From assembly GCA_946631295.1 (NCBI GenBank), contig CAMOZY010000009.1, positions 1-53,563 of the forward strand: a DNA stretch of 53,563 nt, given 5' to 3'. Made by a program: the position numbers and the translations under genes. The notes below the pieces were generated by a model. The model was not told the DNA's origin and did not search any database. It was given only the letters and a program-made list of their open reading frames with translations. This DNA is from an uncultured Lachnospiraceae bacterium. GTDB taxonomy: Bacteria > Bacillota > Clostridia > Lachnospirales > Lachnospiraceae. Shown piece by piece: positions 19,527-42,212 of this stretch. Every line of letters begins with the position of its first letter. Within the stretch, counting starts at the first letter, position 1.

Positions 19527-19539
19527 GAGCACTTTGCTA

Positions 19540-19815: not shown

Positions 19816-19825
19816 GGGGGATAAA

Positions 19826-22902: not shown

Positions 22903-22917
22903 TAATAAGGATCTGAA

Positions 22918-24819: not shown

Positions 24820-24865
24820 TAGGTTAAGCACTGCTTAATGATGTAAATAACGACTAAGGATTGAT

Positions 24866-26290: not shown

Positions 26291-26406
26291 TTATAGCTCA
26301 AAGCTTTTTTAAAAGAGATTATCGGGCAGAATTAATTATTAAGACGGAACTAATTCTTCAGATAGAATGATTTTTACAGATGATAAGTTATAAGAGGTAA
26401 AAGGAT

Positions 26407-27852
26407 TTGGCAGGAATAGGTGTCAGATTAAATAAAATATACAGCAGAAGGACAATTGTTTCCGGAGTATGGGGAGTCGGGTATAGTACGGTTATATCCA
26501 TAGCTCCGATGATCGTTGTTATCCTTGCCGTTGTTCTTATGCAGAGATGGCTTGGATATTCAAAGATCAGTTATGCGTCAAGAGAATTATATTCATGTAC
26601 CGTCCTTTATATCTTTATATTTGGCCTTCTTACAGCATCTCCATTCAATGCTGTTTTGTCTAAATATCTCTCGGATATAATCTATTATGATGAATACGAA
26701 AAGATACAGCCATGTTATTACGTAGGACTTTTGTTGAACACGATACTGAGTTTTATAGTGGGTGTTCCATTCTGCATACATGAATATATTGTCGGAGAGG
26801 TTGATCCGTATTTTGTTTTTCTCGGATTTTACGGATATATGTGCCTGATGATCGTCTTTTATTCGATGCTGTATCTGTCAATCTGTAAGGTGTATAAGAG
26901 GATTTCAATATTCTTTACGATTGGAATGACCATAACTGTTCTTTTGTCACTTGCTCTTGTCTACCTGTTCGGAGTAGATACCATATATGCAATGCTCCTG
27001 TCACTTGATGTTGGATTTACGTTTATAGCCGCATTCGAACATGCTCAGATAAGAAGCTATTTCAGGGAAAACAGCGGACACTATCGTGATGTTCTGGAAT
27101 ATTTTAAGAAATACTGGAAGCTTGTTATCACGAATTTTCTCTATATACTTGGTCTCTACATTCATAATTTTGTATTCTGGTCCACCGATATGAGGATAGT
27201 TGTCGTGAAGAGTTTTGTATGTATGCCGGCATATGATATGGCTACATGTCTTGCGATGTTTACTAATATTTCTGCCAGCGTTATCTTCATTTCGCAGGTT
27301 GAGATGTATTTCCATGAAAGATACAAGAAGTATTCCGAGGCGGTTACCGGCGGAAGAGGAATGGATATACAGAATGCCAAGGTCAGGATGTTTGAAACTC
27401 TTTCGGATGAACTTCTCGGACTTGTCCGCATTCAGTTTATAGTTACGGTAGTATTGTTTTTCCTTGCAATGATGGTGCTTCCCAGATTCGGATTCGGAGG
27501 ACTGGTACTTAAGATATATCCCTGCCTGACATCGGGATACTTCATACTTTTCCTTATGTATGCAGCAATTATTTTCCTTTATTATTTCAATGATTTTAAC
27601 GGCGCGGTCTTTACCGCTTTCTGTTTTGTAGTTACTACTTTTATCGGAGCATATGTATCCAAAGAGTTTACTCCACTCTGGTATGGTATTGGCCTTGTTG
27701 CCGGAAGCTTTGTGGGATGGATGGCCGCTTATTACAGACTCAGAAAAATAGAACAGACTCTTGATGTACATATCTTCTGTAACGGTAATCTCATGAAGAG
27801 AAGTGAGGGTAAAAAGCCTTCGAATATAGTTTTTTTGAGAGATACAAAATGA
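26407..27852 (+). CDS. pelG: PelG-type polysaccharide transporter (MATE/PST-like)
   Basis: The 481-residue membrane protein has about 12 hydrophobic helices and the typical PelG start AGIGVRLNKIYSRRTIVSG. It exports the polymer made by PelF. The start codon is TTG at 26407, supported by GAGGT 9 bases upstream and by the match of the N-terminus to PelG. The 116 bases before it hold no gene and no clear terminator; I see no convincing promoter either. Confidence 0.85.
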   Translation: MAGIGVRLNKIYSRRTIVSGVWGVGYSTVISIAPMIVVILAVVLMQRWLGYSKISYASRELYSCTVLYIFIFGLLTASPFNAVLSKYLSDIIYYDEYEKIQPCYYVGLLLNTILSFIVGVPFCIHEYIVGEVDPYFVFLGFYGYMCLMIVFYSMLYLSICKVYKRISIFFTIGMTITVLLSLALVYLFGVDTIYAMLLSLDVGFTFIAAFEHAQIRSYFRENSGHYRDVLEYFKKYWKLVITNFLYILGLYIHNFVFWSTDMRIVVVKSFVCMPAYDMATCLAMFTNISASVIFISQVEMYFHERYKKYSEAVTGGRGMDIQNAKVRMFETLSDELLGLVRIQFIVTVVLFFLAMMVLPRFGFGGLVLKIYPCLTSGYFILFLMYAAIIFLYYFNDFNGAVFTAFCFVVTTFIGAYVSKEFTPLWYGIGLVAGSFVGWMAAYYRLRKIEQTLDVHIFCNGNLMKRSEGKKPSNIVFLRDTK

Positions 27853-27877
27853 AAAAAGACAGACCGGAGATAAATTT

Positions 27878-28288
27878 ATGAATACGATGAGTATAGTACT
27901 TAAAATTGTTGTTATTGTTGCAGGTGGCTTCCTTCTTGCTGATGCCATATTTTCACTTGCAAGAAGAAAGATGACAGAATCCTTCTGCCTTATGTGGGGA
28001 CTTATTTCCGTATTCATGATAATAGGCGGAAGCATAATCAGGCCTTCGCAGTTATCGAAATTCATCAGTCCAATCAGTTTTGCACTGATATTGATGATCA
28101 TTTTCATACTGGTTTATATCGCATTGTTTTTCTCTCATGCCATTTCGGATCTGATGAGAAAAAATAACGAGCTGGCTATACAGGTATCGCTGCTTGTACA
28201 TGAAAAAGATGAGATTCAGAAAAAGTTAAATGAGCTTACTGGAACGGAACCCGGAAAAGATGACATCAGAACAGAATCCGAAAAGTGA
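27878..28288 (+). CDS. DUF2304 membrane protein
   Basis: The 136-residue protein has three hydrophobic helices (about 5-25, 35-55 and 64-88) and a C-terminal coiled-coil-like helix. DUF2304 proteins commonly sit beside GT2 glycosyltransferases in cell-surface polysaccharide loci, where they may be membrane partners. Its end overlaps the GT4 gene by 29 bases in another frame. Confidence 0.75.
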   Translation: MNTMSIVLKIVVIVAGGFLLADAIFSLARRKMTESFCLMWGLISVFMIIGGSIIRPSQLSKFISPISFALILMIIFILVYIALFFSHAISDLMRKNNELAIQVSLLVHEKDEIQKKLNELTGTEPGKDDIRTESEK

Positions 28289-29510
28289 AGATAAAAAGAA
28301 GATACTGTTTGTAATAAATACGCTTGGTCGTGCAGGGGCAGAGACTGCTCTTATGGCACTTTTACGAAAGCTTCTGAGCGGTGAAAATAAGGGCAGATAT
28401 GATATTTCTCTTTTTGTTCTGACCGGACAGGGGGAGATGATAGATGATCTTCCTGAAGGCGTGAGAGTTCTGAACAGGGATTATCAGAATGAATCCGTGC
28501 TTTCTGCGGAAGGAAGAAAGATACTGAAAAAGAAATGCTTAAGAGCGCTTATAAAAAGATGTAATCTCCTGAGGCTTTTTCCATATATTATTACCAATGC
28601 ATTTGCAATGCGTGGTGGGATAAAAGCAGATAAACTTCTCTGGCGCGTTTTGTCAGATGGTGCTGAACACTTCGACGAGCAATTTGATCTGGCAGTTGCG
28701 TATCTTGAGGGTGGATCGACATATTATGTATCAGACCATGTAAATGCATCAAAGAAGGCTGCATTTGTACATGTGGATTATGTCCAGGCCGGGTATACTC
28801 CAAAACTTGATCTTGGATGCTACGACAGAATTGACAGAATCTTTTCAGTTTCAGATGAGGTAAAGGATGCTTTTCTGAATATGCATCCTTCGTATTCAGA
28901 TAAAACTGAAATTTTTCATAACATAATTGATAAAGACAGGATCAGAAAACTTGCATTAACCGGTAAAGGCTTTGATGACGGTTTTGACGGAATCAGGATC
29001 GTAACCGTCGGGCGTCTTACAGCTCAGAAATCATTTGAAGTATCAATAGATGCCATGAAAATCATAGCTGAAAAAGGTATTGAGTCGGGCCAAAGAGTCA
29101 GATGGTATGTTTTCGGAGAAGGAGATCAAAGAGGCTTCCTTGAAGAACATATAAAGGAATGCGGACTTGAAGGTGACTTTATATTGTTTGGTGCCGTAAG
29201 CAATCCTTATCCTTATATTTCACAGGCTGACCTTTATGTTCATGCAACGAGATTTGAGGGAAAGAGTATCGCAATACAGGAAGCACAAGCTCTCGGAAAA
29301 GCAATAATTGCTTCTGACTGCAGCGGAAACAGAGAGCAGATTGATAACGGAACCGATGGTGTTTTGTGTGATTTTAATGCTGAAAGCATTGCAGAAGCGG
29401 TTATTAATCTTTTGAACAATCCGGAAATGATCAAAAAACTGGGAAAAGCTGCGCCTGATAAACTTGAAGATTCGACTAAGGAAATCATTAAACTGACATG
29501 CATGATCTGA
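28260..29510 (+). CDS. Glycosyltransferase family 4
   Basis: The 416-residue GT-B enzyme has the N-domain start KKILFVINTLGRAGAETALM. C-domain nucleotide-sugar motifs are VTVGRLTAQKSFE, YVFGEGDQR, and the E-x7-E region FEGKSIAIQEAQALGKAIIASD. It presumably adds one sugar to a membrane-bound glycan. I use ATG 28260 (GGAAAAG upstream); ATG 28230 adds ten residues but has no ribosome site. The acceptor and donor are unknown. Confidence 0.85.
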   Translation: MTSEQNPKSEDKKKILFVINTLGRAGAETALMALLRKLLSGENKGRYDISLFVLTGQGEMIDDLPEGVRVLNRDYQNESVLSAEGRKILKKKCLRALIKRCNLLRLFPYIITNAFAMRGGIKADKLLWRVLSDGAEHFDEQFDLAVAYLEGGSTYYVSDHVNASKKAAFVHVDYVQAGYTPKLDLGCYDRIDRIFSVSDEVKDAFLNMHPSYSDKTEIFHNIIDKDRIRKLALTGKGFDDGFDGIRIVTVGRLTAQKSFEVSIDAMKIIAEKGIESGQRVRWYVFGEGDQRGFLEEHIKECGLEGDFILFGAVSNPYPYISQADLYVHATRFEGKSIAIQEAQALGKAIIASDCSGNREQIDNGTDGVLCDFNAESIAEAVINLLNNPEMIKKLGKAAPDKLEDSTKEIIKLTCMI

Positions 29511-29544
29511 TGAATAAGGCTGAATTAATGGGAAGGGAATCCTG

Positions 29545-30291
29545 ATGAATAAAGCACTGATAATCATTCCTGCATATAACGAAGGGATAACGATCGGAAA
29601 TCTGCTGGATCGTCTTAAAGAGCCTGATATCTCCTCTATAGCGGACATTCTTGTGATGAACGATGCTTCAAAGGATAATACAGGTGAAGTGGTCCGCAGT
29701 AAAGGAATACAGGTGGTTGATAATATTTATAATCTTGGCTACGGGAGCGGTCTGCAGCTTGGATATAAATATGCCGTATCACATGGATATGAATATGTGA
29801 TACAGATGGATGCTGATGGACAGCATGATATCTGTAATATTCCTGAGATATACAAAGCTCTGACTACAGCAGATAAGGATGGTAATATTCCGGATATTGT
29901 TCTTGGTTCAAGGTTTATTAACGGATGGAAGGATTATCCTACATCACTGCTTAAGAAGATTGCATATAAGCTGTTCGGATTTCTGATAATGCTTGGCACA
30001 CGTAAGAAGATAACAGATCCTACAACCGGACTGCAGGGACTTAACAGAAAGGCATTTTCCCATTACAGCAGATACGGGAATTTTGATGATAAATATCCGG
30101 ATGCGAATATGCTTATGCAGATGCTGTTACTCAGGTTTAATGTAGTTGAGATCAGAGCTTTGATGCATACGAGAAAGAGCGGAGTGAGTATGCATTCCGG
30201 AATCATTAAGCCAATGATATATATGTTCCGTATGTCTGTATCAATCATAGCGGTTTGGATAAGGATAAAACTGTTTAAAGAACAGATATGA
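29545..30291 (+). CDS. Glycosyltransferase family 2 (DPM1-like)
   Basis: The 248-residue GT-A enzyme shows LIIIPAYNEG, the nucleotide-binding VMNDASKDNT and metal-binding QMDADGQHD. Its layout resembles polyprenyl-phosphate sugar transferases (DPM1-like), and DUF2304 two genes upstream is a usual companion. A weakly hydrophobic C-terminal segment could touch the membrane. It likely makes a polyprenyl-linked sugar donor used by a GT-C protein such as the one at 31.5 kb. Confidence 0.88.
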   Translation: MNKALIIIPAYNEGITIGNLLDRLKEPDISSIADILVMNDASKDNTGEVVRSKGIQVVDNIYNLGYGSGLQLGYKYAVSHGYEYVIQMDADGQHDICNIPEIYKALTTADKDGNIPDIVLGSRFINGWKDYPTSLLKKIAYKLFGFLIMLGTRKKITDPTTGLQGLNRKAFSHYSRYGNFDDKYPDANMLMQMLLLRFNVVEIRALMHTRKSGVSMHSGIIKPMIYMFRMSVSIIAVWIRIKLFKEQI

Positions 30292-30306
30292 TAATGAAAG
30301 GTCCGG

Positions 30307-31521
30307 ATGGGAATATTCGACAGGTTAAAAAACGGAATCGCGTTTAAAGCAGCAGACCTGAAGGAAATTTCAGGGGGTGTATGCAATCCTGACATGGGCT
30401 GGTTTCACCTGTATACCTATGATCTGGTTGATGAATCGGAACTTCCTGAAAAAGATCCTGATCCCCTCAATAGCCTTGTTCTTCTTCTGATAAAGATAAA
30501 GCCTTTACAGCTGAGTGAAGAAGGAGGCACGAATGATGCCCATGATATGATCCTCAGGATTATAGACAGATATTATTCACTGGGAAAAGATATTATCCTC
30601 AGGATCACTTATGACACAAACGGACATGCTCTTGAAAATGAACCGTACGATCTTGATGAAGTCCTTCGTGATGCTGAAGCTATAAATGGAATACTTGAAA
30701 CGGCTGGAGAAAAGATTTTCATTTATCAGGGACTTCTTGTCGGTAATTGGGGAGAAATGCATACCTCAAGATATGCTGACAGTTCGTCTTTTAGCTGCAT
30801 TAATGAAAAAATCAGCGGTGGCAAATGCTATTTTGCCGTTAGGCGTCCTGATATACACAGACAGCTCCATGACGGAAGCGGAAGGCTGGGACTCTTTGAT
30901 GATGCTATATTTGGATCAGAATCTGATATGGGAACTTATGCTGATCCTGATAATGATATCCTGTATGAAGAGAAAGTAGCAGTGCAGGCTCCTAATGGCG
31001 GTGAAGCCGTATACGGGGGAGGATATATTAAGAATCTCAGCGACGACAAGATAATCAGTTTCCTTCAAAGAAAGAGAGTCACATATCTAAACAATGATTA
31101 TGACCCGAAGGTTTTAAATTGTCTGAGAGAAAAAGGTGATCTGTATAATAAGATATCTTCAAGACTTGGATACAGGCTGTTTGTCAGAGATGTAAGATAC
31201 ATGAAATCAGGAAATGTGCTTAGGATAACTGTGACGAATAAGGGATTTGCGCCTGTTTACAGAGAGACGGAGAGCAGTGTGATACTTACTGATGCTGATG
31301 GCAATGATTATTCTGTCAGTATGAAACTTGAACTGAAAGGTAAAGTGTCTCCCGATGATACTGTCACTGCAGATGCAGACTTATCCGAAGTCTTGAACAT
31401 GGATATGAAATATCCCGTAAAGTTGAGCCTTATAACCAGGCGCTCCTTTGACGGAAAAGTAATACGTTATGCAAACATATCTTCTGATGACGGAAGTGTG
31501 TTTATTGGAGAATTGAGATAA
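30307..31521 (+). CDS. DUF4832/DUF4874-like protein, possible glycosidase fold
   Basis: The 404-residue protein starts with the family motif GGVCNPDMGWFHLYTY. A TIM-barrel-like part follows (about 1-275: LVLLLIKIKPLQL, DIILRITYDTNG, IFIYQGLLVGNWGEMH). A beta-sandwich end covers about 290-404, as in DUF4832 proteins. Catalytic activity is unproven for the family. There is no signal peptide, which is odd for a glycan-degrading enzyme. It overlaps the next ATG by one base. In a Pel-type locus it could stand in for the hydrolase part of PelA, but that is a guess. Confidence 0.6.
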   Translation: MGIFDRLKNGIAFKAADLKEISGGVCNPDMGWFHLYTYDLVDESELPEKDPDPLNSLVLLLIKIKPLQLSEEGGTNDAHDMILRIIDRYYSLGKDIILRITYDTNGHALENEPYDLDEVLRDAEAINGILETAGEKIFIYQGLLVGNWGEMHTSRYADSSSFSCINEKISGGKCYFAVRRPDIHRQLHDGSGRLGLFDDAIFGSESDMGTYADPDNDILYEEKVAVQAPNGGEAVYGGGYIKNLSDDKIISFLQRKRVTYLNNDYDPKVLNCLREKGDLYNKISSRLGYRLFVRDVRYMKSGNVLRITVTNKGFAPVYRETESSVILTDADGNDYSVSMKLELKGKVSPDDTVTADADLSEVLNMDMKYPVKLSLITRRSFDGKVIRYANISSDDGSVFIGELR

Positions 31522-33977
31522 TGGAACTGTTTTATTGGATATTGGAATATGCCAAAGTAAATATCGCATATATGATACTTATGTTTGTATGGCCATCCAT
31601 AATTTTTCATAAGTTTCTTAAGGGCAGGTCATTTACGTTCAGGTTCATGTTCTGTTCTGTAATAAGCATTGTTTTGCTTAATACATCTGTAATATTGCTT
31701 GGGCTGGTTCATCTTCTGAATGTACATGTTTTCAGGATACTGTTTTACGGAAGTATATTGCTGTGCATCTATTTCAGGATTCCGAATAAAAAAGCGAAAC
31801 TGATTGAAGCCGGGAGAGTGCTTGCCGGAAGCTACGGCGTTAAGCAGATGTTTTTCAATCTTTCAAGAAATACAATCGATGCATATCACCAGTCCGTAAA
31901 CGGGCTGAAAAAGAAAATTTTGGGGCGCAGGCTGGAATATGGTTTATTGTCCGTTGTTCTGATCTTCGGAATGATCTACTTCACTTATGGTTCGGTTCAG
32001 AATCATTCCTATGGCTTCGGTGATATGTATCCCCACAGTGCATGGGTATACGGACTTGTACAGGGTCAGATTTTTTCAGCGGGAATATATCCTGAAGGTA
32101 TGCACTGTTTTATTTATGCAATGCATGTGCTTTTTGGAGTTAGGCTGTTCAGCTGTGTTCTTTTTACTGCAGGTGTTCATATTCTTATTTTGCTGTTAAG
32201 CGTTTATGTTTTTTTCAAGGAATTGTTCAGATCGAGATATACCCCGATCTTTGCACTTGCTTTATTCCTCACTGTAGACGTTCTGTGTATTGACGAGATA
32301 TACGGCATGTCAAGATTTCAGTGGACTATTCCTCAGGAATTTGGAATGTTCAGTGTGTTTATCTGTGCAACTGCTCTTATAAGATACTGCAGATCCGATG
32401 GAGCAGAGAGCAGGATAAGAACGCTTCTGGATAAAAAAGGACGAAATGTCGAGAAACTTAAGAAACTTATCTATAATGATGAACTGATAATCTTTTCAGC
32501 AGCACTTGCTGTATCTGTTATTGTTCATTTCTATGATACCGGAATGGCTTTTTTCCTTTGTCTTGCAGTTGTCCCTGTTCTGATTCACAGGATATTTATA
32601 CCGAGACGTTTTGTTCCTCTTTTCGCATCTGCTATTACTGCACTGGTTATTTCAGTATCTCCGATGGCTCTTGCTTTTGCTTCGGGAATCCCTCTTCAGG
32701 GCTCAATCGGATGGGCAATGAGTGTTATAAATGGTGATGACTGGGCGGAAGAAGGACATTATGATCAGGATACTGAAAGGCCGGAAGATTTTTCAGATGA
32801 TACCGAAAGAAAGAATGCTGATGAAACAGGAGACGAACATAAAAACAGAAGTTATATTCCTGCATGTAATGAGCATCAGATCAAGGCTTCAGGCTATGTA
32901 AAACCAGCTGGTATAGTGATAACTGCAAATGGGTTTGTTCATAAGTTTGTAAACGGATTATATAAGGGCGGTTATGAAACTCTATACAAACAGGAAAGAG
33001 CCAAGCTAATCGTTTGTCTTACCTTTATCGCATTCATATTGTTTATCGTATGTAAGATGATCAATGTTATATATGCTGTTAAGAATAAAGACAGAGCAAT
33101 ATCAATGTGTCTTTTTGACGGATATTTTGTTCTTGTACTTGCTTCAATAATCTTTATGATGCTGTATTGCGCTGATTCCATTGGCCTTCCAAGCCTTTTT
33201 GCAAGAAGCAGACTATGTGGTATTGAAAGATTTTTAATCTGTGCAGTATGTGTTATTCCCATTGATCTTGTATTTATGTTCCTTGAGAAAAAAACACCTT
33301 CATGGGTGGCAGGCGTTTCTGGAATTGTTGTCACTTCGGTGATATACGTTGGAACGATAGTGACTGGTAATTTCCACGGATATCTTTATTGTGAATTTAC
33401 CAGATATAATTCAGTTGTAAATGTGACAGAATCCATTGTTTCAAATATCGATAAGCAGAAATTTACAATAGTTTCACCTGTTGATGAACTATATCAGATC
33501 ATTGAATACGGATATCATGAAGAACTTGTCCAATTCATTAATGACTGCGTAGAGAAGGACTATACACTTCCTACTGAATACGTTTTTATATTCTTTGAAA
33601 AGCGTCCTCTGAAGTATGCACAGTTTAATTTTTCATCAGGACCTGCATGGCTGGCTGAAGAAAAGTATATGGATTATTATGATTATCTGACCGGCAGCCA
33701 GTATCCGAAGTATATAAACTCAGTTGCTTCCCCGGAAATAGCAACAGGACCGTTTTATAAGTTTCCTGTTTCTTCTCAGTCATATAATGACTGGCTTACA
33801 AGAACCGTTCTGGAATCCAGAATGCTCAAATGGGTTAATGATTTTAATGATCTTTATCCGAATGAGCTTCATGTTTATTATGAAGATGATCTGTTTGCAT
33901 GTTATTATTTCAGACAGAATCCGGCATGCCTTTACCAGCTTGGATTTGAGGTTGATGACAGCAGAGAGACATCATAG
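31521..33977 (+). CDS. Large polytopic membrane protein, GT-C-like
   Basis: The 818-residue protein has more than ten hydrophobic helices, with a hydrophilic insertion at about 410-450 (Asp/Glu-rich) and an extracytoplasmic C-terminal domain of about 180 residues. An acidic site after the early helix (GFGDMYPHSAWVYGL) is in the place of the GT-C catalytic aspartate. It may transfer sugars from a polyprenyl donor made by the neighbouring GT2. I see no closer family match with certainty. It overlaps the preceding gene by one base and is followed at 22 bases by Stealth. Confidence 0.6.
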   Translation: MELFYWILEYAKVNIAYMILMFVWPSIIFHKFLKGRSFTFRFMFCSVISIVLLNTSVILLGLVHLLNVHVFRILFYGSILLCIYFRIPNKKAKLIEAGRVLAGSYGVKQMFFNLSRNTIDAYHQSVNGLKKKILGRRLEYGLLSVVLIFGMIYFTYGSVQNHSYGFGDMYPHSAWVYGLVQGQIFSAGIYPEGMHCFIYAMHVLFGVRLFSCVLFTAGVHILILLLSVYVFFKELFRSRYTPIFALALFLTVDVLCIDEIYGMSRFQWTIPQEFGMFSVFICATALIRYCRSDGAESRIRTLLDKKGRNVEKLKKLIYNDELIIFSAALAVSVIVHFYDTGMAFFLCLAVVPVLIHRIFIPRRFVPLFASAITALVISVSPMALAFASGIPLQGSIGWAMSVINGDDWAEEGHYDQDTERPEDFSDDTERKNADETGDEHKNRSYIPACNEHQIKASGYVKPAGIVITANGFVHKFVNGLYKGGYETLYKQERAKLIVCLTFIAFILFIVCKMINVIYAVKNKDRAISMCLFDGYFVLVLASIIFMMLYCADSIGLPSLFARSRLCGIERFLICAVCVIPIDLVFMFLEKKTPSWVAGVSGIVVTSVIYVGTIVTGNFHGYLYCEFTRYNSVVNVTESIVSNIDKQKFTIVSPVDELYQIIEYGYHEELVQFINDCVEKDYTLPTEYVFIFFEKRPLKYAQFNFSSGPAWLAEEKYMDYYDYLTGSQYPKYINSVASPEIATGPFYKFPVSSQSYNDWLTRTVLESRMLKWVNDFNDLYPNELHVYYEDDLFACYYFRQNPACLYQLGFEVDDSRETS

Positions 33978-33999
33978 TTAGTAATTGCAGGATATTGAT

Positions 34000-35016
34000 A
34001 TGGACATAGATATCGTAGTCACATGGGTAGATGGTGAAGACCCTGAGTGGCTGAAGGAAAAAAGTAAATATCTTCCTGACAACGCCTACGGAGACAGAAT
34101 AGAACGGTTCCGTGACTGGAGCCTGCTTAAATACTGGTTCAGATGTGTTGAAAAGAATGCTCCCTGGGTAAGAAAGATCCATTTTGTGACGTACGGACAC
34201 ATTCCTCAGTGGCTTAATGTATCGAATTCCAGATTAAATATTGTAAAGCATGAGGATTTTCTTCCGAAAGATTCCATTCCATGTTTTAACTGTTCGCTGA
34301 TTGAGAGATATCTTCATAGGATTCCGGACCTTGCGGAACATTTTATTTATTTTAACGATGATTGTTTTCTGTTAGGCTATACCGACAAGGATTATTTCTT
34401 TAAAAAGGATCTTCCAAGAGATATGCTTGCTTTTCAGCCTGTTGTTGCCAATCCTTCCAATCCCGGAATGACACATCTTGTACAGAATAATATTCTGGTT
34501 CTTTCAAAACATTTTGATAAAAGAAAAAATGTAAAGGACCATCCGGCTCATTATTTTCATATCGGATATCCGGCAATCTATTTTTTCTATAATCTTCTGG
34601 AACTTGCTTTCCCGAGATTTACAGGCCTGTATTCTGTTCACAGCGCAGCTCCGATGTTAAAAAGTACTTATGAAGAAGTATGGAAAAATGAAGGCGGGTA
34701 TCTTAAAAGCCTGAATGGAAACAGATTCCGTGATGACACAGATGTTAACCAGTATCTTTTCAGGGAATGGGGAAAATTAAGTGGTAAGTTTGCTCCGTCT
34801 AATATCACAAGGCATGTGATGTATACCGAATTGTCTGATGATAATGAAAGTATTCTAAAGGTGATAAGTCGGGGAAAGAAAGGAATACTTAAACCTGCGG
34901 TCAAATGTCTGTGTATAAATGATACAGGGCTTGTAAAAGATGTTGAAAAAGTCAGAAATGAAATGATCGATGCTTTTGACAAGGCTTTTGCCAATAAATG
35001 TTCTTTTGAAAAATAA
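34000..35016 (+). CDS. Stealth-family capsular polysaccharide phosphotransferase
   Basis: The 338-residue protein has Stealth conserved region 1 (DIDIVVTWVDGEDPEW). Region 2 follows (LKYWFRCVEKNAPWVRKIHF through FIYFNDDCFL) and region 3 after that (around DHPAHYFHIGYPAIYFFY). No clear region 4 is visible. Stealth enzymes transfer a hexose-1-phosphate, building phosphate-linked glycans such as capsule repeats. I start at ATG 34000, preceded by an AGGAT site; a TTG at 33985 is unneeded. It means that the polymer of this block probably contains phosphodiester links, distinct from Pel. Confidence 0.9.
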   Translation: MDIDIVVTWVDGEDPEWLKEKSKYLPDNAYGDRIERFRDWSLLKYWFRCVEKNAPWVRKIHFVTYGHIPQWLNVSNSRLNIVKHEDFLPKDSIPCFNCSLIERYLHRIPDLAEHFIYFNDDCFLLGYTDKDYFFKKDLPRDMLAFQPVVANPSNPGMTHLVQNNILVLSKHFDKRKNVKDHPAHYFHIGYPAIYFFYNLLELAFPRFTGLYSVHSAAPMLKSTYEEVWKNEGGYLKSLNGNRFRDDTDVNQYLFREWGKLSGKFAPSNITRHVMYTELSDDNESILKVISRGKKGILKPAVKCLCINDTGLVKDVEKVRNEMIDAFDKAFANKCSFEK

Positions 35017-35030
35017 CCGGGAGAGCGTAT

Positions 35031-36575
35031 TTGGAAAAGAAGAGTAGAACGGAATACTCTGCAAGAAATACAACTGTTGCAGTCATCTCAAGAGTACTTG
35101 CTATACTCATGGGATTTGCCGCAAGAGTTGTTTTTACTCATACGCTCAGCTCTGATTATGTTGGAATAAACGGACTGTTTTCAGATATTCTGAATGTTCT
35201 TGCTTTATCTGAACTAGGAGTCGGAACTGCGATAACATATGCTTTATACAAACCGATTGCCGATGGTAATATCGAAAAACAGAAGATCCTGATGCAGCTT
35301 TTCAAAAAGTTTTATTATGTGGTTGCCGGGATAGTTTTTGTATGTGGTCTTGCAGTTCTTCCTTTTATGGATTTTCTTATCAAGGATCAGCCTGATGTTC
35401 CTTATCTTACGCTAATCTATCTGATGTATCTGGCTAATTCTGTTCTTTCATATATCGGTATATACAGAAAAACTCTCATCGATGCACATCAGGTAGGATA
35501 TATCAGTACCATCATTCAGACATCATCATGGTTTGTTCAGAATGTTGTTCAGATCATAGTATTGCTTACAACTCGTAATTATGTTCTCTATCTTTCTATT
35601 TGGATACTGTGTACTGTGTTTGGAAATATCTGTATATATTTTAAGGCAGGCAAAATGTATCCATATCTGAACGATAAGGAATGCGGTATGTTAAAAACAG
35701 AAGAAAAGAAATCACTTTGGGCAAATGTACGCGCAATGATGGTTCATAAGATCGGTGGAGTTCTTGTCAATAACACTGATAATCTTCTATTGTCAGCACT
35801 TGTGGGAACGCTTTCTGTCGGAAGATATTCCAATTATTTTCTGATCATAGGTTCGGTAAAACAGGTTCTCGAGCAGATGTTTCAGGGAATGATGGCAAGT
35901 GTCGGAAATATGAATGTCAGCGAATCCAAAGAGCGTATAAGAAGGATATTTGATGCAATCTTTTTTATGGGACAGTGGGTATACGGACTGATAACGATAA
36001 TGATGTTCGAGGTTCTTGATATATTTGTCGGGGCGAGTTTTGGAGAACTTTATCGTTTTGAGGGGGATATAACTTTTGTTCTGTGCCTTTGCTTTTATTT
36101 TACGGGAATGCGCCAGCCTACGCTTATCTTCAGGGATTCGATGGGACTGTTTAAATATGATAAATGGAAAGCAGTTGCTGAGGCAGTTATAAATCTTGCT
36201 GTATCGTTGGTACTTGGATATTTTTACGGTGTTATAGGAATATTTCTCGGAACTTTGATCAGCACGATGCTCACATCATTCTGGGTGGAGCCGTATATGC
36301 TTTATAAGCACAGACTTAAGTACAGCTGCTTTACATATTTTGTAAGATACATTTTCTATACATCGGTGACTTTTGTTCTCTGGTATGCAGAACACAGGAT
36401 TCTTTTGAAAATAATAAACATCGAAAACTGCTGGGTGGAGATGATTGTTAAAGTTATTTTCACATTTGTGGTAACCAATATGATTTACCTGGTGGTTTAT
36501 TTCAGAAATAAAGATTTCAGATTTCTGTTTTATAAAGCAAGGGATATTTTGGAAAAAAGGTTCGGACATGAATAA
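35031..36575 (+). CDS. Polysaccharide flippase (Wzx/PST-like)
   Basis: The 514-residue protein has about 12-14 hydrophobic helices and the typical oligosaccharide flippase start (NTTVAVISRVLAILMGFAAR), with the family segment DYVGINGLFSDILNVLALSE shortly after. It should turn lipid-linked glycan units to the outer face. The start is TTG, set by GGGAGAG upstream. It overlaps the nucleotidyltransferase gene by 8 bases. That it comes in addition to PelG again points to two polymers in the region. Confidence 0.85.
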   Translation: MEKKSRTEYSARNTTVAVISRVLAILMGFAARVVFTHTLSSDYVGINGLFSDILNVLALSELGVGTAITYALYKPIADGNIEKQKILMQLFKKFYYVVAGIVFVCGLAVLPFMDFLIKDQPDVPYLTLIYLMYLANSVLSYIGIYRKTLIDAHQVGYISTIIQTSSWFVQNVVQIIVLLTTRNYVLYLSIWILCTVFGNICIYFKAGKMYPYLNDKECGMLKTEEKKSLWANVRAMMVHKIGGVLVNNTDNLLLSALVGTLSVGRYSNYFLIIGSVKQVLEQMFQGMMASVGNMNVSESKERIRRIFDAIFFMGQWVYGLITIMMFEVLDIFVGASFGELYRFEGDITFVLCLCFYFTGMRQPTLIFRDSMGLFKYDKWKAVAEAVINLAVSLVLGYFYGVIGIFLGTLISTMLTSFWVEPYMLYKHRLKYSCFTYFVRYIFYTSVTFVLWYAEHRILLKIINIENCWVEMIVKVIFTFVVTNMIYLVVYFRNKDFRFLFYKARDILEKRFGHE

Positions 36576-37803
36576 AGAGCAGATCGCACTGACGGAATTG
36601 CTTCGCAAAAGTCTTACCGGCGAAAACGATACGATATCCGTGAATGCACTGACAAATTCAGAATGGGATAATCTTCTGGGACTTACTGAATCACAAAAGG
36701 TTACAGGTATGCTTTATGATGCCGTATGCGATTCGGATTCAGTTCCTGAGCGGGCTGTGGTTTCCTTTCAGAGAGCGGCGGTAAAGACCGCAACACAGGA
36801 TTTCAGACTTCTTTTTCTGGCAAGAGATATCTTAAGCAGGCTTGAGACTTGCAGTATTCCGGCGGTTCTTTTAAAAGGTATGGGAACGGCTTCTTTTTAC
36901 AGGAATCCTCTTTGCAGAAAAAGCGGTGACGTGGATATATTGATACCTGATGAAACGAGGATTGACGAAGCAGTCAGTATACTTGAGGATTCAGGATTTC
37001 GCGTTAAGGAAAAGCAGTATGCACTTCATCATGTCGTGATGATCACAGAGGATGATATAGATATAGAGCTTCATACGATGCTTGCTGAACCGTTCGATAA
37101 CGAAAGGGCAAATAAGATACTGAAGGGTCAGCAGGATAGTCTGATCATTACGGATGAAGATGGAAACAGGCGGCTTAATGATTTATATGTCAGAAAAATC
37201 GATGTATTAGGAGCCCCACTTACAATTCTGAATGATTCCTATCATGCTTATGAGCTTCTTTTGCATATGCTTCAGCATTATCTGCGTAAAGGTTTTGGTA
37301 TAAGGCTTCTTTGCGACTGGGTAGTGTTCTGGAACAGAGACATATCTGATGCAGCTGTCGATAAATATCTCAAGCTTGTTACCGAGAGTGGGATCAAAGG
37401 TTTTTCAGACATGGTTACTTTGGTTTGTTACAGGCATCTTGGTCTCGGAAAAACAGGAGCGAAGCTTCTGAAAGCAGGGGAGAGCGACTATAGGAAAAGT
37501 GAGATTGATGAATTCCTTGAAGAGTTCGTATCACATGGAGAATTCGGTAAGACTGGAAAAGGACGAATGGTTGCTCTGAGGGGAAATGGTCCACTGGATT
37601 ATGTACGGGAATTTCATCATCAGATGAGACTCAATTATCCCAAACAGTCTGAGAATGTTTTCCTGTGGCCTGCACTCTGGGTTATGACACTTGTCAGGTT
37701 CCTGATAAACAATCAAAAAATACGTAAGGTTTCATTGGGACAGGTTCTTGGCTCAGCAGGTAAAAGAGGGAAGATGGTCAGGAAACTGCATTTGTTTGAG
37801 TAG
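36568..37803 (+). CDS. Uncharacterised nucleotidyltransferase (NTP_transf_5-like)
   Basis: The 411-residue protein has the nucleotidyltransferase core at about 105-180. There, LLKGMGTASFY, the metal-binding GDVDILI and the third acidic strand DIDIELHTM match the NTP_transf_5 family. The C-terminal half is helical. Such proteins occur beside PqqD-like and HPr-kinase-like genes in some peptide clusters, for example around Bacillota lasso peptides with tailoring kinases. Its substrate is unknown. It overlaps the flippase by 8 bases and so is transcribed with the polysaccharide block, but its partners are downstream. There is a 242-base gap before the next gene, which has its own promoter. Confidence 0.75.
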   Translation: MNKEQIALTELLRKSLTGENDTISVNALTNSEWDNLLGLTESQKVTGMLYDAVCDSDSVPERAVVSFQRAAVKTATQDFRLLFLARDILSRLETCSIPAVLLKGMGTASFYRNPLCRKSGDVDILIPDETRIDEAVSILEDSGFRVKEKQYALHHVVMITEDDIDIELHTMLAEPFDNERANKILKGQQDSLIITDEDGNRRLNDLYVRKIDVLGAPLTILNDSYHAYELLLHMLQHYLRKGFGIRLLCDWVVFWNRDISDAAVDKYLKLVTESGIKGFSDMVTLVCYRHLGLGKTGAKLLKAGESDYRKSEIDEFLEEFVSHGEFGKTGKGRMVALRGNGPLDYVREFHHQMRLNYPKQSENVFLWPALWVMTLVRFLINNQKIRKVSLGQVLGSAGKRGKMVRKLHLFE

Positions 37804-37884
37804 CTTTTATAAGAGCTGTTTCAGGTTTTGAGTTCAGGCGTACTTATAGCCATAAATGAGCATAAAAACGCAGGATATGGCAAA

Positions 37885-37905
37885 TTCTTAAGATTTTCTT
37901 AAGAA
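37885..37905 (+). promoter_or_regulatory. CTTAAG direct/inverted repeat upstream of the small-protein promoter
   Basis: CTTAAG at 37887-37892 and 37898-37903 are separated by five bases, an 11-base period typical of OmpR/PhoB-family response regulator boxes. The same bases form an inverted repeat (TTCTTAAG / CTTAAGAA). The second copy ends 18 bases before the -35. Confidence 0.5.
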
Positions 37906-37921
37906 AAATTGCCCGAAAACC

Positions 37922-37950
37922 TTGACACTAATTATTTATTCACTTATATT
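37922..37950 (+). promoter_or_regulatory. Strong promoter of the leader-bearing small protein
   Basis: TTGACA at 37922-37927 and TATATT at 37945-37950 are exactly 17 bases apart. A start near 37957 leaves a leader of about 90 bases ending in GAGGAGAG before the ATG at 38046. Confidence 0.8.
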
Positions 37951-37962
37951 TGTAGTGAATAA
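37936..37962. promoter_or_regulatory. Palindromic operator candidate centred on the -10 box
   Basis: Nine-base perfect arms, TTATTCACT (37936-37944) and AGTGAATAA (37954-37962), enclose nine bases that hold the whole -10 element. A dimer bound here would block RNA polymerase. Confidence 0.55.
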
Positions 37963-38045
37963 TAACGTGAAACCTATTTTATACATATATTTTGCGTGAA
38001 AGAGATTTTTGAGAGAGAGTTTTTAGGTTTTAGAGGAGAGAATAA

Positions 38046-38534
38046 ATGATTAAGTATGAAAAGCCCATGGTGCTTGAATTAGACGATATTGCTGAGGGTA
38101 TCTACGCAGCAAGCGGAGATGACAACGAAAAGCAGGACGGCACCGAAAATGAAGGCGAGAACAGATCTAATGGTGGCCAGGAAGAGGAAGGCAATTGCTG
38201 GGAGATTGTTAATATTGATTATTTCCAAAGAAGTAATGGTGAAGTGAGAATGCGTTTAACATGTAAGCATGAAGCGGTACATATTTCCACTGCATCAATA
38301 ATTACTCTTATGTTTAATCAGGTTATTACGAATGCTCAATATGAAGCATTCGAAGTTAGTGGTGTAGGAACTTCTACTCTTGTACTTACCCGGCCTAATG
38401 ATGCAGATGCACATAATTCAGTTGATATTATTGCACCTTCATTGATTGTTACTTGTGAAGATTCTGATACTCTTACGGTTATACAGTCTTCGATTTCTTG
38501 TGATTATCGTCCGAATGTTCAGGGTGGAATCTGA
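38046..38534 (+). CDS. Leader-bearing small protein, probable substrate of the adjacent export system
   Basis: This 162-residue protein matches no family I know. Residues 1-24 look like a recognition leader (KYEKPMVLELDD, then AEGIYAASG), with a small-residue ASG that could mark a cleavage site. Residues 25-50 are acidic and Asn/Gly-rich. Residues 51-162 look like one beta-rich domain bounded by cysteines, with C51, C73, C137 and C152, enough for two disulfides. There is no Sec signal peptide, so export would need the ABC transporter that follows. A strong ribosome site (GAGGAGAG), its own regulated promoter and a hairpin after it suggest that it is made in excess of its machinery. It could be a secreted bacteriocin-like, signalling or surface protein; function is unknown. 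Confidence 0.8.
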   Translation: MIKYEKPMVLELDDIAEGIYAASGDDNEKQDGTENEGENRSNGGQEEEGNCWEIVNIDYFQRSNGEVRMRLTCKHEAVHISTASIITLMFNQVITNAQYEAFEVSGVGTSTLVLTRPNDADAHNSVDIIAPSLIVTCEDSDTLTVIQSSISCDYRPNVQGGI

Positions 38535-38569
38535 TAGTTTCAAATGTCTTGCTTATGATTTGTTAATAT

Positions 38570-38600
38570 ATAACCGCCCTTTGATAGGGCGGTTATTTTA
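38570..38600 (+). terminator. Hairpin between substrate and exporter genes (attenuator)
   Basis: A perfect 11-base stem (ATAACCGCCCT / AGGGCGGTTAT) with a five-base loop is followed only by TTTTA-like bases. The short U-run suits partial termination, lowering exporter relative to substrate transcript. Confidence 0.7.
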
Positions 38601-38611
38601 CGTAGGAAAAT

Positions 38612-40369
38612 ATGTTTAAGAAGATAGTTAGGTTTTTTAAGAAAAAATCTAATATTGTTACTCTGAAGAAACGAGCACTATGGGTCTGCAGATATGCAGT
38701 AAGTTACTGGAAAGAAATGCTCTTTTATACCTTGCTTGGATTATCGGGAACAGTTCTTTCCCTTACAAGCAGTCTTGTTTCAAAGGATCTTGTGGATATT
38801 ATCACGGGTCATCAGACCGGACGTGTAATTACAACATTCATAATTATGATAAGTATGACTCTTGGGTCGACTTTTATTACTCAGGTGTCAGGATATTTTT
38901 CATCCAAAATTAACCTCAGGGTAGAAAATACCATAAGATCTGAAATCTTTGAGAAAATATTGTCTGCAGACTGGGAGCAGCTGAGCAGCTATCATACAGG
39001 TGATCTTCTAACAAGATGGGGAAATGACGTATCTTCTTTATCAAGCGCCATCTTAAGCTATATACCTAACGGAATTGTATATCTGTTCAGATTTGGTGCG
39101 GCATTTGCCATAATGGCTAAGTATGACTTTACCTTTGCACTTATTGCTATGGCTGGTATGCCATTTACTTACTTTATCTCGCGAAATCTTACCCGCAGAA
39201 TGCAAAGGAATAATATGCGAAGTTCTGTTATGAATGCAAAAATGTCGGGCTTTAACCAGGAAGCATTCTCTAATATACAGACTATTAAGGCTTTTGATAT
39301 GATCGGACATTATGTCAGAAAGCTTAAGGAACTGCAGTCTGATTATGTTAAGATGCGTCTAAATTATCAGAAGGTATATATAATTATTTCTATACTTCTT
39401 ACGATTGTTGGTCTTGGAGTTTCGTATTTATCCTATGGCTGGGGAATTTACAGAGTCTGGTCAGGTGTTATTACATACGGAACCATGACTATGTTCCTTT
39501 CTTTGTCCGGAACACTTACCAATACATTAAACAGCCTTTTATCGCTGATTCCTTCAGGAATATCCATTACCACTTCTGCTTCGAGACTTATGGAATTAAC
39601 CGAACTTGATCATGAAAACTATGAGTCAAAAGAAGCGGTGAAGGAATTTTATGATAATTACTGCAAAGACGGAGTTGAACTTAAGGTCGAAGATGTAAAG
39701 TATTCCTACAGAAACGGTAATGAGGTTTTTGACGGAGTATCTTTTGACGCAAAACCTCATGAGATAGTAGCTCTTATCGGACCTTCCGGCGAAGGTAAAA
39801 CTACTATGCTGAGAATGTTGCTTTCGCTTGTTAAGCCCAGTGAAGGAGAAACCTATATAGTAGGTGATGGCGGAAAGGAAATGTCGCTCAGTGCCTCTGT
39901 TCGTCAGCTTATTTCATATGTGCCTCAGGGAAATACGATGTTTTCCGGGACTATTGCAGAGAATATGAGAAATGTTAAGGAAGACGCTACGGATGAAGAT
40001 ATCATAAATGCTTTGAAAAAGGCATGTGCATGGGAATTTGTTGAAAAGCTTCCTGATGGTATCAATAGTGAGATCAAGGAGCGTGGAGGCGGATTTTCTG
40101 AAGGGCAGGCTCAGAGACTTTCAATTGCAAGAGCATTCCTCAGACATTCACCAATCCTTCTATTGGATGAGGCAACATCTGCGCTCGATCCTAAGACTGC
40201 TAAGGAAGTTCTAAAGAACATCACAGAAGATGAGTATCCCAGAACCTGCGTACTGACAACACACCGTCCGGGCATGCTTAAAGGATGCTCAAGGGTTTAC
40301 CGCATCAGTGACAAGCACTGTACAGAACTTACCCACGATGAAGTCCAGGAAATAATTAACGGGGGCTGA
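38612..40369 (+). CDS. Peptide/protein-type ABC exporter, permease fused to ATPase
   Basis: The 585-residue half transporter has six membrane helices in about 30-310, and an ATPase domain from about 355. Walker A is GPSGEGKTT, the signature is FSEGQAQR (a variant of LSGGQ), Walker B is ILLLDEATSALD and the H-loop TTHRP. There is no N-terminal C39 peptidase domain, so it cannot itself remove a double-glycine leader. It likely exports the small protein encoded just upstream. Its 3' end overlaps the convergent PqqD-kinase gene by 14 bases. Confidence 0.88.
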   Translation: MFKKIVRFFKKKSNIVTLKKRALWVCRYAVSYWKEMLFYTLLGLSGTVLSLTSSLVSKDLVDIITGHQTGRVITTFIIMISMTLGSTFITQVSGYFSSKINLRVENTIRSEIFEKILSADWEQLSSYHTGDLLTRWGNDVSSLSSAILSYIPNGIVYLFRFGAAFAIMAKYDFTFALIAMAGMPFTYFISRNLTRRMQRNNMRSSVMNAKMSGFNQEAFSNIQTIKAFDMIGHYVRKLKELQSDYVKMRLNYQKVYIIISILLTIVGLGVSYLSYGWGIYRVWSGVITYGTMTMFLSLSGTLTNTLNSLLSLIPSGISITTSASRLMELTELDHENYESKEAVKEFYDNYCKDGVELKVEDVKYSYRNGNEVFDGVSFDAKPHEIVALIGPSGEGKTTMLRMLLSLVKPSEGETYIVGDGGKEMSLSASVRQLISYVPQGNTMFSGTIAENMRNVKEDATDEDIINALKKACAWEFVEKLPDGINSEIKERGGGFSEGQAQRLSIARAFLRHSPILLLDEATSALDPKTAKEVLKNITEDEYPRTCVLTTHRPGMLKGCSRVYRISDKHCTELTHDEVQEIINGG

Positions 40370-41648
40370 CATCGTCAATGGATTGCTGAAGTACTCTTTG
40401 GGCGGAAGGTTCCTTAGTGCAATACAGTCTCTTGATGTAGATCTGTTCTTCGAGCGGTGTAAGGTCGCAGATCATCTTCTTGAGCATGGCTGAGTTCCAA
40501 AGAGGGGATATGGTTCGTCTTGTGAGCGTAAAGAGCCTGTCGGAACCGTTTATGTTCTCGACCATGTCATTTTCGGAACGCTTAAGAAATACGATTCCGC
40601 CAAGAGGATAGGAATGCGTATCATAGATTCCTGAGGTTCCGCACCAGGGGATTCCGAAAACAGTGGCCTTTCCATCGGAAAGTCCTATTAGATTGAGATC
40701 TCCGTTTATATTTACTGCATCCGTATATTTTGTCCAGAGTGCGGCATGTGTAGATTTGCCGATGCCTGATGATGCAGAGAACAGAAAAGCTTTATCTTTG
40801 TAAAGGATTGAAGCTGAGTGAATGGCATATAATCCTTTTTTTTCTGCGATGTAGAGAAAAGGAATACGGATGGCGTGGAATAATTGATATATGATTGAAT
40901 TAGTATCCGCCGGATTGGTTACAGTATAGTCATCCGTTATGAATATTCTGACAATCCTTGCATCCTTGGATATACGCGTTTCGATAACCTGTGAGTTTTC
41001 GGGATATGAGACAATATACTCGGATTCGGTTTCGGAAATATTCATTTCATCATTTTTTATGATGTATTTTGTCGGATGAGTCTTATGAACGTTCGGAACT
41101 GCAGAAATAAATATCTTCATGTCGGGAAACGCTGTATCATAAACTTTTATGTCCCGGCAGGAAAAATCATAAAATGAAGGGTCGAATAATTCTTTTTTTC
41201 CATACAAATCAATTCTGATGCCGGCAATATTAAGCTTTAGAGCAGACTGAATCTCAGGGGTATTAAAATCCGAATACTCGAAAGCTGATAATTCTTTTTT
41301 TGCCTGAGCATAATTAATTAACTCTGAATCCGTCATTTCATTTTCTGACTTCTCGGGATGCAGGACCTCTTTAACATCCGATATTATCCCAAGCCTGATA
41401 AGATGATCCAGAAAAGCGGCTGCATCCGTTGCAGCTTCAGCTTCTTTTTCAGGCTGAATCCCGGCCTTTGTGATAAAATCATTAATCAGAGCATCACGTC
41501 CAGTTCCATGCTCAAGGAGTTTCCATAAGAGCAGACCGGTTTTGTTTATTCTGATACCGCGCTTGTGGTCGCTGATACTCTGGGCGATTGGAAGAATATA
41601 ATCGTCCCCTGATATGCAGATGTGAGTAAAATACTTATTTCTACGCAT
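40356..41648 (-). CDS. PqqD-like / HPr-kinase-like fusion
   Basis: The 430-residue protein begins with a PqqD-like winged helix (about 12-92: GIRINKTGLLLWKLL, LIRLGIISD), the peptide-recognition fold of RiPP systems. After a linker (95-250), an HPr kinase/phosphorylase-like P-loop domain follows (about 255-430). It has the His segment AIHSASILYKDKAFLF and the Walker A SSGIGKST (293-300). Family relatives in lasso peptide clusters phosphorylate a serine of the precursor, so a phosphorylated substrate is a fair hypothesis. No Shine-Dalgarno precedes the ATG. A -10-like TATTAT 6 bases upstream would even allow a leaderless transcript. Opposite orientation to its neighbours. Confidence 0.78.
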   Translation of the reverse strand: MRRNKYFTHICISGDDYILPIAQSISDHKRGIRINKTGLLLWKLLEHGTGRDALINDFITKAGIQPEKEAEAATDAAAFLDHLIRLGIISDVKEVLHPEKSENEMTDSELINYAQAKKELSAFEYSDFNTPEIQSALKLNIAGIRIDLYGKKELFDPSFYDFSCRDIKVYDTAFPDMKIFISAVPNVHKTHPTKYIIKNDEMNISETESEYIVSYPENSQVIETRISKDARIVRIFITDDYTVTNPADTNSIIYQLFHAIRIPFLYIAEKKGLYAIHSASILYKDKAFLFSASSGIGKSTHAALWTKYTDAVNINGDLNLIGLSDGKATVFGIPWCGTSGIYDTHSYPLGGIVFLKRSENDMVENINGSDRLFTLTRRTISPLWNSAMLKKMICDLTPLEEQIYIKRLYCTKEPSAQRVLQQSIDDVSPR

Positions 41649-41660
41649 GGGTATATAATA

Positions 41661-41685
41661 TCATGAACTGTGTACAAGTTCATGA
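41661..41685. promoter_or_regulatory. Palindrome between divergent kinase-like and peptidase genes
   Basis: Perfect nine-base arms TCATGAACT (41661-41669) and AGTTCATGA (41677-41685) flank seven bases, in the 90-base divergent intergenic region. An operator serving both genes is likely. The sequence differs from the palindrome at the small-protein promoter. Confidence 0.5.
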
Positions 41686-41738
41686 ATAATATACAGTTAT
41701 AAATCTTTGATCATGTTTTGTTTTCCGAGGAATAACTC

Positions 41739-42212
41739 ATGAATTCAGATTCAAATACAGCTACTAAAGAAAAGAAAAATCCCGAAACTCTGCTCCGAAA
41801 CGGACAGGCCATTGAGATGTCGCCTCATGGATGGAGCATGTATCCGCTCATCGTGCCGGGCAGGGACCGGGTTGTTATTGAACCTTCAGCAGGAAAAAAA
41901 CTTAAAAGGCTTGATATCGTTCTTTTCCGGAGAGATGGCAGTATTTTAGTGCTTCACAGGATAGCCCGTATCCGGAAAAATAAATACGGACATCCTGTAT
42001 ATTTTATGGTAGGAGATAACCAGTCCGAACTTGAAGGCCCTATAAAGGAAGATTGCATTTGCGGAGTTGTTACCGGGCTGGTCCGGAAAGGAAAAAAGAT
42101 GTCTGTATCCGGTATTGCATACAGGAGTTCTGTACGGATATGGATGGCCTTAAGACCGCTCAGACCGCTTATTTCAAGGGGCGTTTCAAAGGTTAAAAAG
42201 TGCTTTAAATGA
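41739..42212 (+). CDS. Soluble S24/S26-type peptidase (SipW/ER-like Ser-His)
   Basis: The 157-residue protein has the S26 nucleophile motif HGWSMYP (Ser33), a VIEPSAGKKLKRLDIVLFR-like core seen in part, and His73 in LVLHRIA. In this position ER-type signal peptidases carry His instead of the bacterial Lys. GDNQSELEG matches the conserved box near the C-terminus. No N-terminal membrane anchor is visible, so it may act on the cytosolic side, perhaps on the leader of the small protein. GAGG sits 8 bases before the ATG. Confidence 0.8.
   Translation: MNSDSNTATKEKKNPETLLRNGQAIEMSPHGWSMYPLIVPGRDRVVIEPSAGKKLKRLDIVLFRRDGSILVLHRIARIRKNKYGHPVYFMVGDNQSELEGPIKEDCICGVVTGLVRKGKKMSVSGIAYRSSVRIWMALRPLRPLISRGVSKVKKCFK

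Follow-up and report, generated by a model that had tools for sequence, protein, structure and literature searches.

The closest described relatives of the system considered here are the linear polyphosphorylated peptides (LPP), a group of ribosomally synthesized and post-translationally modified peptides (RiPPs) whose clusters in Bacilli, exemplified by the lpp cluster of Paenibacillus alginolyticus, were reported by Popov et al. in May 2026 (PMC13381572). According to the passages of that article on which we draw, the LPP set comprises the SpI-like peptidase LppS, the RiPP recognition element (RRE) protein LppB, the HprK-like kinase LppK, the nucleotidyltransferase (NTP transferase) LppN and the exporter LppD, and it occurs in capsular loci. 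The precursors are 35-200 residues long, with a tested core of 45 residues, and their leaders follow the consensus YxxPxVLxHQxIxFETxxS. LppK phosphorylates Ser3 of the core, adding multiple phosphates (an S3T variant stays unphosphorylated), and LppS removes the leader with the help of LppB, both in vitro and in E. coli. The authors call LPP restricted to Bacillota, with a gain-and-loss pattern typical of conflict genes. In the case of pseudomycoidin, passages of another report tie kinase and nucleotidyltransferase genes to a phosphate and a hexose on a serine (PMC9266682). Here we analyze a five-gene cassette carried by a stretch of 53,563 nucleotides from an uncultured Lachnospiraceae bacterium (contig CAMOZY010000009.1 of assembly GCA_946631295.1), which we refer to as the window.

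We propose, with a probability of roughly two in three, that the cassette represents a distinct clostridial branch of LPP-type RiPP systems that acts on small folded domains, by phosphorylation of Ser23 of the precursor, maybe followed by glycosylation, and by leader removal and export. A sequence-only reading of the window had postulated an undescribed leader-guided system, whose modification would be either new or absent. The leader-guided scheme is well supported, because the leader is kept on very different cores and the partner genes recur with it, and the enzymes have kept their catalytic residues. On the other hand, the LPP RiPPs of Bacillota are characterized by this very set of enzymes, which there phosphorylates a core serine and cuts the leader (PMC13381572); the system is thus not wholly undescribed, and within our searches the word applies to the branch alone. 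No published description of the fused RRE-kinase branch was found in a search that left preprints and most subscription journals outside. The main text of the LPP article contains no mention of "Clostridi", "Lachno" or "carbohydrate-binding", and "fused" refers in its passages to laboratory constructs; its supplementary data, outside the main text searched, may include members from Lachnospiraceae.

Comparison with known RiPP systems

The cassette shares with LPP the S26/SipW-like peptidase, the RRE, the HprK-like kinase, the NTP transferase and the MsbA-like exporter, as well as the YxxPx[VI] part of the leader, the location in polysaccharide loci, the presence of two or more precursors in part of the clusters, and the lack of a cyclase gene in the cassette. 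The differences, as far as the passages of the LPP article allow the comparison, are fourfold. The RRE of LPP is a discrete protein by which the leader is presented, whereas in the cassette it is fused to the kinase (the window has, in addition, a separate discrete RRE, 19534-19815). The YxxPxV part of the leader is common to both, but the leader ends with FETxxS in LPP and with EGVYAASG here. The precursors of the cassette have 77-188 residues (with one of 40) and a predicted folded core, in some cases similar to the carbohydrate-binding module CBM_2, in contrast to the 45-residue core tested for LPP. Finally, the cassette occurs also in Olsenella porci, a member of Actinomycetota.

The lasso peptides paeninodin and pseudomycoidin resemble the cassette in their HprK-like kinase, nucleotidyltransferase, RRE and [Y/W]xxP leader, but they have short cores, whereas the cassette has a predicted folded cargo and no macrolactam cyclase. 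A lasso peptide was rejected as the product: the B2 peptidase family (PF13471) has no match in the window's genome (91% complete), and the cassette contains no lasso cyclase gene, as the sequence-only reading had maintained. Matches to the asparagine-synthetase-like cyclase family PF00733 are confined to contigs C1 and C55 of this genome, with none on the contig of the window (C9). In Bacillus subtilis the Ser-His S26 peptidase SipW serves the secreted matrix proteins TasA and TapA; unlike SipW, the peptidase of the cassette has no evident N-terminal membrane segment, is linked to an RRE and is accompanied by an ABC exporter. The kinase half also bears a weak likeness, far below the cut-off, to the kinases of the HPr-rel-A and SynChlorMet cassettes as represented by NCBIfam models.

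One leader, many cores

The cargo precursor of the window (38046..38534, plus strand) is a protein of 162 residues with cysteines at positions 51, 73, 137 and 152, in agreement with the four cysteines and leader-like start described before. It matches no family of Pfam or NCBIfam up to E 0.1. Its first 24 residues, MIKYEKPMVLELDDIAEGIYAASG (38046..38117, plus strand), constitute the leader delineated in the alignment of 130 distinct 30-residue N-termini from 136 precursors, with the consensus MK[N/K]YEKPVVLANE[E/D]LAEGVYAASG. Conservation is strong (Y4 in 126 of the 130, P7 in 129, E17 in 128, G18 in 125, S23 in 125 and G24 in 124), and beyond residue 24 the precursors are little conserved. 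Position 23 is occupied by Ser in 125 N-termini, by Gly in four and by Asn in one, and never by Thr. The scan of the genome collection demanded the pattern [ED][DE]x[AS]EG[IV][YF]A[AND], and N-termini were kept if they reached position 20 of our own leader profile; conservation at positions 13-22 is therefore partly built in, while Y4, P7, S23 and G24 are not covered by the pattern of the scan, yet within the leader profile. The same profile picks up precursors of the FET type at other places in the phylum, where discrete RREs and kinases accompany them (L171, E 1e-5; L172, E 6e-5).

As judged from sequence comparison, this single conserved leader serves many different cores. At E 1e-4, the cores that follow it fall into 15 BLAST clusters, with 93, 19, 8, 3, 2 and 2 members and nine singletons, which may be distant kin of the larger clusters. 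Two or three cargos are present at 23 of 80 loci. Precursor lengths are mostly 104-188 residues within a range of 77-188, plus one precursor of 40 residues (L104), which was counted despite being short enough for a broken copy. The AlphaFold2 model of the window cargo exhibits a confident all-beta core (approximately residues 52-153; 38199..38504, plus strand), with strands from 52 to 153 and 77 residues at pLDDT of at least 90, preceded by a low-confidence leader and linker (blocks with pLDDT of 51-65). Among 28 hand-picked cores scanned with Pfam, including all eight members of the third largest cluster (core cluster 2), CBM_2 matches eight at E up to 0.1, the best at E 1.1e-6, and the first member scanned scored 26.5 bits against a cut-off of 24 bits. 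The cargos examined have the look of folded domains, and some resemble CBM_2.

The cluster of 19 is a class of Cys-rich cargos (CDSxYMxG...FGCLGCPA...DNGKRKPSWE; L046, L048, L054, L055, L059, L060, L064 and others), which carry the same leader and have no BLAST link to the core of the window; short Cys-rich cores occur.

Recurrence of the partner genes

Loci were found by the cargo alone and the partners were then detected with their own profiles. A scan of the collection of species genomes with the cargo alignment yielded 555 pattern matches, of which 84 were relatives and 80 were kept. At these 80 loci the ABC exporter is present in 72 cases, the kinase in 66, the S26 peptidase in 55 and the NTP transferase in 53; 39 loci have all four and three have none. 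At the 39 loci with full 9-kb flanks the corresponding numbers are 37, 35, 32 and 29, with all four at 26 and none at two. The recurrence of the four partners, named as a check by the sequence-only reading, is therefore borne out, and so are two hallmarks of LPP clusters: a Ser-His-Asp peptidase beside the RRE (the S26 protein at 32 of the 39) and the kinase, NTP transferase and exporter in one cluster (together with the S26 protein at 26). Cargo homologues without such neighbours do exist, but the genomes of both fully flanked orphans (L131 and L143) encode a fused kinase elsewhere, as does genome G442, which has another orphan. Homologues lacking these partners and a leader lacking a conserved motif had been named as findings that would refute the sequence-only reading; both checks turned out in favour of it.

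Cargo matches were found in 8 of 59 near relatives and in 24 of 397 genomes of the family (the window's own genome is counted in both). The fused kinase is likewise present in 24 of the 397, as hand-picked matches of the kinase profile that start at model positions 1-4, i.e. at the PqqD end, and the two sets overlap in 22 genomes (Fisher p ~1e-31, with related species not independent). The cargo genomes outside the fused-kinase set are G266, in which the cargo has a divergent fused kinase next to it (L222), and G199 (68% complete), with a weak match to the PqqD end only. The fused-kinase genomes without a cargo match, G103 (whose kinase has no P-loop) and G077, show no further gene of the cassette in the sequence that surrounds the kinase.

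At the level of the phylum, the kinase profile matches 12 of 398 genomes, the window's own included; among the matches listed for the 11 others, each is limited to one of the two parts, kinase or PqqD. Clusters of the discrete form are found also in Lachnospiraceae (L227, L228 and L231, with ABC and S26 genes, and L230, with a FELDT-type precursor). The cassette of the named strain of Olsenella porci (L107) was accepted as real because GC content is 0.58-0.66 throughout; its fused PqqD domain scores 18.4 bits, under the cut-off, and its NTP transferase gene is cut by the locus edge. The locus titled Bacteroides (L129) shares an almost identical cargo core with L059, which comes from a genome of the family, and was consequently treated as probably mis-binned.

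The enzymes and their fusions

The open reading frame (ORF) list together with Pfam and NCBIfam confirms the five genes as previously named and ordered, with the addition that the kinase is encoded on the minus strand, its gene converging with that of the ABC exporter. The NTP transferase (36568..37803, plus strand; NTP_transf_5, PF14907, 120 bits), LppN/PsmN-like by role, keeps Asp121 and Asp123 in 52 of 52 sequences. The ATP-binding cassette (ABC) exporter (38612..40369, plus strand; Pfam ABC_membrane and ABC_tran), LppD-like by role, has 20 Pfam matches, which include no C39 family, as expected for an exporter devoid of the C39 peptidase. The 430-residue RRE-kinase (40356..41648, minus strand) contains a PqqD domain that scores 25.7 bits against the Pfam cut-off of 23.4. 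Its P-loop half resembles HprK-related models weakly (TIGR04249, E 0.0099; TIGR04355, E 0.056; TIGR04352, E 0.092; all far below the cut-off), and His277, Lys298 and Asp317 are kept in 61 of 63 sequences. The S26-type peptidase (157 residues; 41739..42212, plus strand), which is LppS/SipW-like, matches TIGR02228 at E 3.7e-7, below the cut-off; its N-terminus appears hydrophilic as read from the sequence alone, and Ser33, His73 and Asp93 are kept in all 55 sequences. Sequence searches of the PDB gave no relatives for the kinase or cargo profiles, and only weak SEC11 matches for S26.

In the kinase tree, a branch of moderate support (87/90) separates the 36 fused rows from the rest, and the program issued a warning of long branches coming together; the tree took 49 of 78 rows and left out L117, L177 and 27 fused rows. 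A single origin of the RRE-kinase fusion is therefore likely, not proven. Fused RRE-kinases without a P-loop, i.e. pseudokinases, are found at L097:2891-4087, L109:6518-7768, L053:9323-10615 and L220:8246-9442; in L053 the degenerate copy stands beside an intact one, and L220 has no other cassette genes in the stretch.

The NTP transferase also occurs in fusions. It is joined in one frame with a flippase at 10 loci (L111, L116, L083, L105, L106, L117, L121, L114, L075 and L078), some of these fusions being partial (L075 has a short NTP transferase part, and L078 and L117 begin at the edge). It is joined with S26 in a frame of 577 residues (L084:13778-15511) and with a GT2 glycosyltransferase in L132; the length of L123 suggests a like arrangement, its front part being outside the scan. 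The flippase fusions provide a Rosetta-stone hint that the NTP transferase works with lipid-linked sugar export.

The adjoining polysaccharide operon and expression signals

A second PqqD/RRE protein, a discrete one of 93 residues that is absent from the sequence-only reading (19534..19815, plus strand; Pfam PqqD 26.7 bits against the cut-off of 23.4, and our own RRE profile), heads a Pel-like polysaccharide operon at a distance of approximately 17 kb upstream of the cassette, and its gene, as listed, overlaps the next, RmlD-like one. The operon (19787..36575, plus strand; Pfam) comprises genes for RmlD/epimerase, DUF2194, DUF3492+GT1, PelG, DUF2304, a GT1-family transferase, GT2, DUF4832/DUF4874, an 818-residue protein, Stealth and a MATE-like flippase. 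The DUF3492+GT1 glycosyltransferase is of the PelF type. The flippase (35031..36575, plus strand; MatE E 0.0076, below the cut-off) overlaps the NTP transferase ORF by eight bases and corresponds to the partner fused with it in relatives. Genes of this polysaccharide type are present at 30 of 42 loci. Among 15 discrete RREs across the loci, six adjoin an NTP transferase (one of them the flippase fusion of L105) and six an RmlD-like gene (the window and five other loci); the profile that listed these 15 was built from 12 of them, and L108 is a weak member (6e-4).

The cargo gene is flanked by candidate expression signals. A sigma-70-like promoter, TTGACA-17-TATATT (37922..37950, plus strand), matches at 11 of 12 positions and is the best of 20 in a scan of the window that overall gave no excess over shuffles (20 vs 16.0). 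A terminator-like hairpin with a T-rich tail (38570..38596, plus strand; -18.5 kcal/mol, z -5.4) lies between the cargo and ABC genes; it was found by our own script and folding, and is missing from the output of the stock terminator scan. Across the loci, 80 of 134 cargo genes have such a hairpin behind them, compared with 6.6% of shuffles, and 4 of 65 kinase, 3 of 52 NTP transferase, 1 of 53 S26 and 21 of 73 ABC genes, while promoter-like sites precede 37 of 135 cargo genes, against 0.7% of shuffles (in both comparisons the shuffles preserve single-base composition only). This excess fits a cargo made in larger amounts than the enzymes.

Proposed mechanism and alternatives

By analogy to LPP, the RRE fused to the kinase would bind the YxxPxV part of the leader, and the kinase would phosphorylate Ser23 at the leader end. 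A sugar may be added to the Ser23 phosphate by the NTP transferase and the second, discrete RRE, in cooperation with the polysaccharide enzymes. The S26-type peptidase would cut within VYAASG, where both VYA|ASG and YAA|SG fit the leader end and either may be used. This cleavage would probably be intracellular, in line with the action of LppS in vitro and in E. coli, and the ABC transporter would export the product. The mature product, produced in large amounts from a transcript of its own, would be a small domain, in some cases carbohydrate-binding-like, with a phosphorylated and perhaps glycosylated N-terminus, and would be used in or on the polysaccharide layer of the cell. The earlier choice between the kinase and the nucleotidyltransferase as modifier of the cargo is made here by analogy: the kinase would be the first to act, and the nucleotidyltransferase would be linked to a hexose on the phosphoserine, as in passages on pseudomycoidin (PMC9266682).

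Several observations weigh against the LPP-type reading. The phosphate, sugar and cleavage chemistry are all inferred by analogy, and since the last third of the leader is unlike that of LPP, Ser23 as acceptor and the cut site have to be assigned indirectly. The first Asp of the His-Lys-Asp-Asp set of lasso kinases is not obvious in the cassette kinase (NGD), and 2 of 63 kinases (L097 and L109) are degenerate, without the P-loop and without His, Lys and Asp. In the Pfam scan the core of the window cargo has no match to any family, CBM_2 included; CBM_2 is unmatched in 20 of the 28 picked cores, and CARDB also matches six of them. Deletion of LppN had no visible effect in the heterologous host, according to the passages of PMC13381572, and 12 of 42 loci have no polysaccharide genes of the window type.

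The last point leads to the alternative that survives best, namely that the polysaccharide neighbours are incidental, two variable surface loci having come together at a common hot spot. This is compatible with binding by the fused RRE, Ser23 phosphorylation, cleavage and export, and some cargos are indeed orphans; however, the single frames in which the NTP transferase is joined with a flippase or with GT2, the position of 6 of the 15 discrete RREs next to an RmlD-like gene and the location of LPP clusters of Bacilli in capsule loci (according to passages of PMC13381572) make it unlikely, though far from negligible. The opposite extension is that small secreted carbohydrate-binding-like proteins become covalently joined to glycan via a new N-terminal phosphoserine: the RRE-kinase would phosphorylate Ser23, the NTP transferase, flippase, glycosyltransferase and second RRE would attach a sugar of the Pel-like pathway, and the products would be matrix protein-polysaccharide conjugates. 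The acceptor, the phosphate-to-glycan step and the matrix role are inferred, and we put this scenario forward as speculative and rather doubtful.

It is improbable that the cassette is an export route only, in which choosing, carrying and trimming the cargo fall to the RRE, ABC and S26 proteins, while the kinase and NTP transferase act elsewhere or regulate. The cargos of L097 and L109 keep the leader beside kinases that have lost His, Lys and Asp, and the LppN deletion points in the same direction; nonetheless, the catalytic residues persist in nearly all kinases, the RRE is fused to the kinase itself, Ser23 is near-invariant and never replaced by Thr, and L053 has an intact kinase beside its degenerate one. 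Least probable is a bacteriocin-like RiPP whose diverse cores are secreted weapons or signals, since the patchy distribution, the diverse and sometimes short Cys-rich cores and the conflict-type gain and loss reported in passages on LPP (PMC13381572) are countered by precursors mostly of 104-188 residues, by CBM_2-like cores and the domain fold predicted for the window core, by the lack of a recognisable immunity gene among the five cassette genes, and by the frequent location within polysaccharide loci.

Implications for the biology of Lachnospiraceae

In the passages of the May 2026 article, the final product and the role of LPP are unsettled (PMC13381572). The LPP-type branch proposed here adds a cargo that can be read: predicted folded, partly CBM_2-like domains behind a common leader with a near-invariant serine. 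The single-protein RRE-kinase could serve as a natural tool for the tagging of whole domains. For the organisms themselves, the purpose of such a RiPP becomes a testable question on the polysaccharide layer of gut and rumen Lachnospiraceae.

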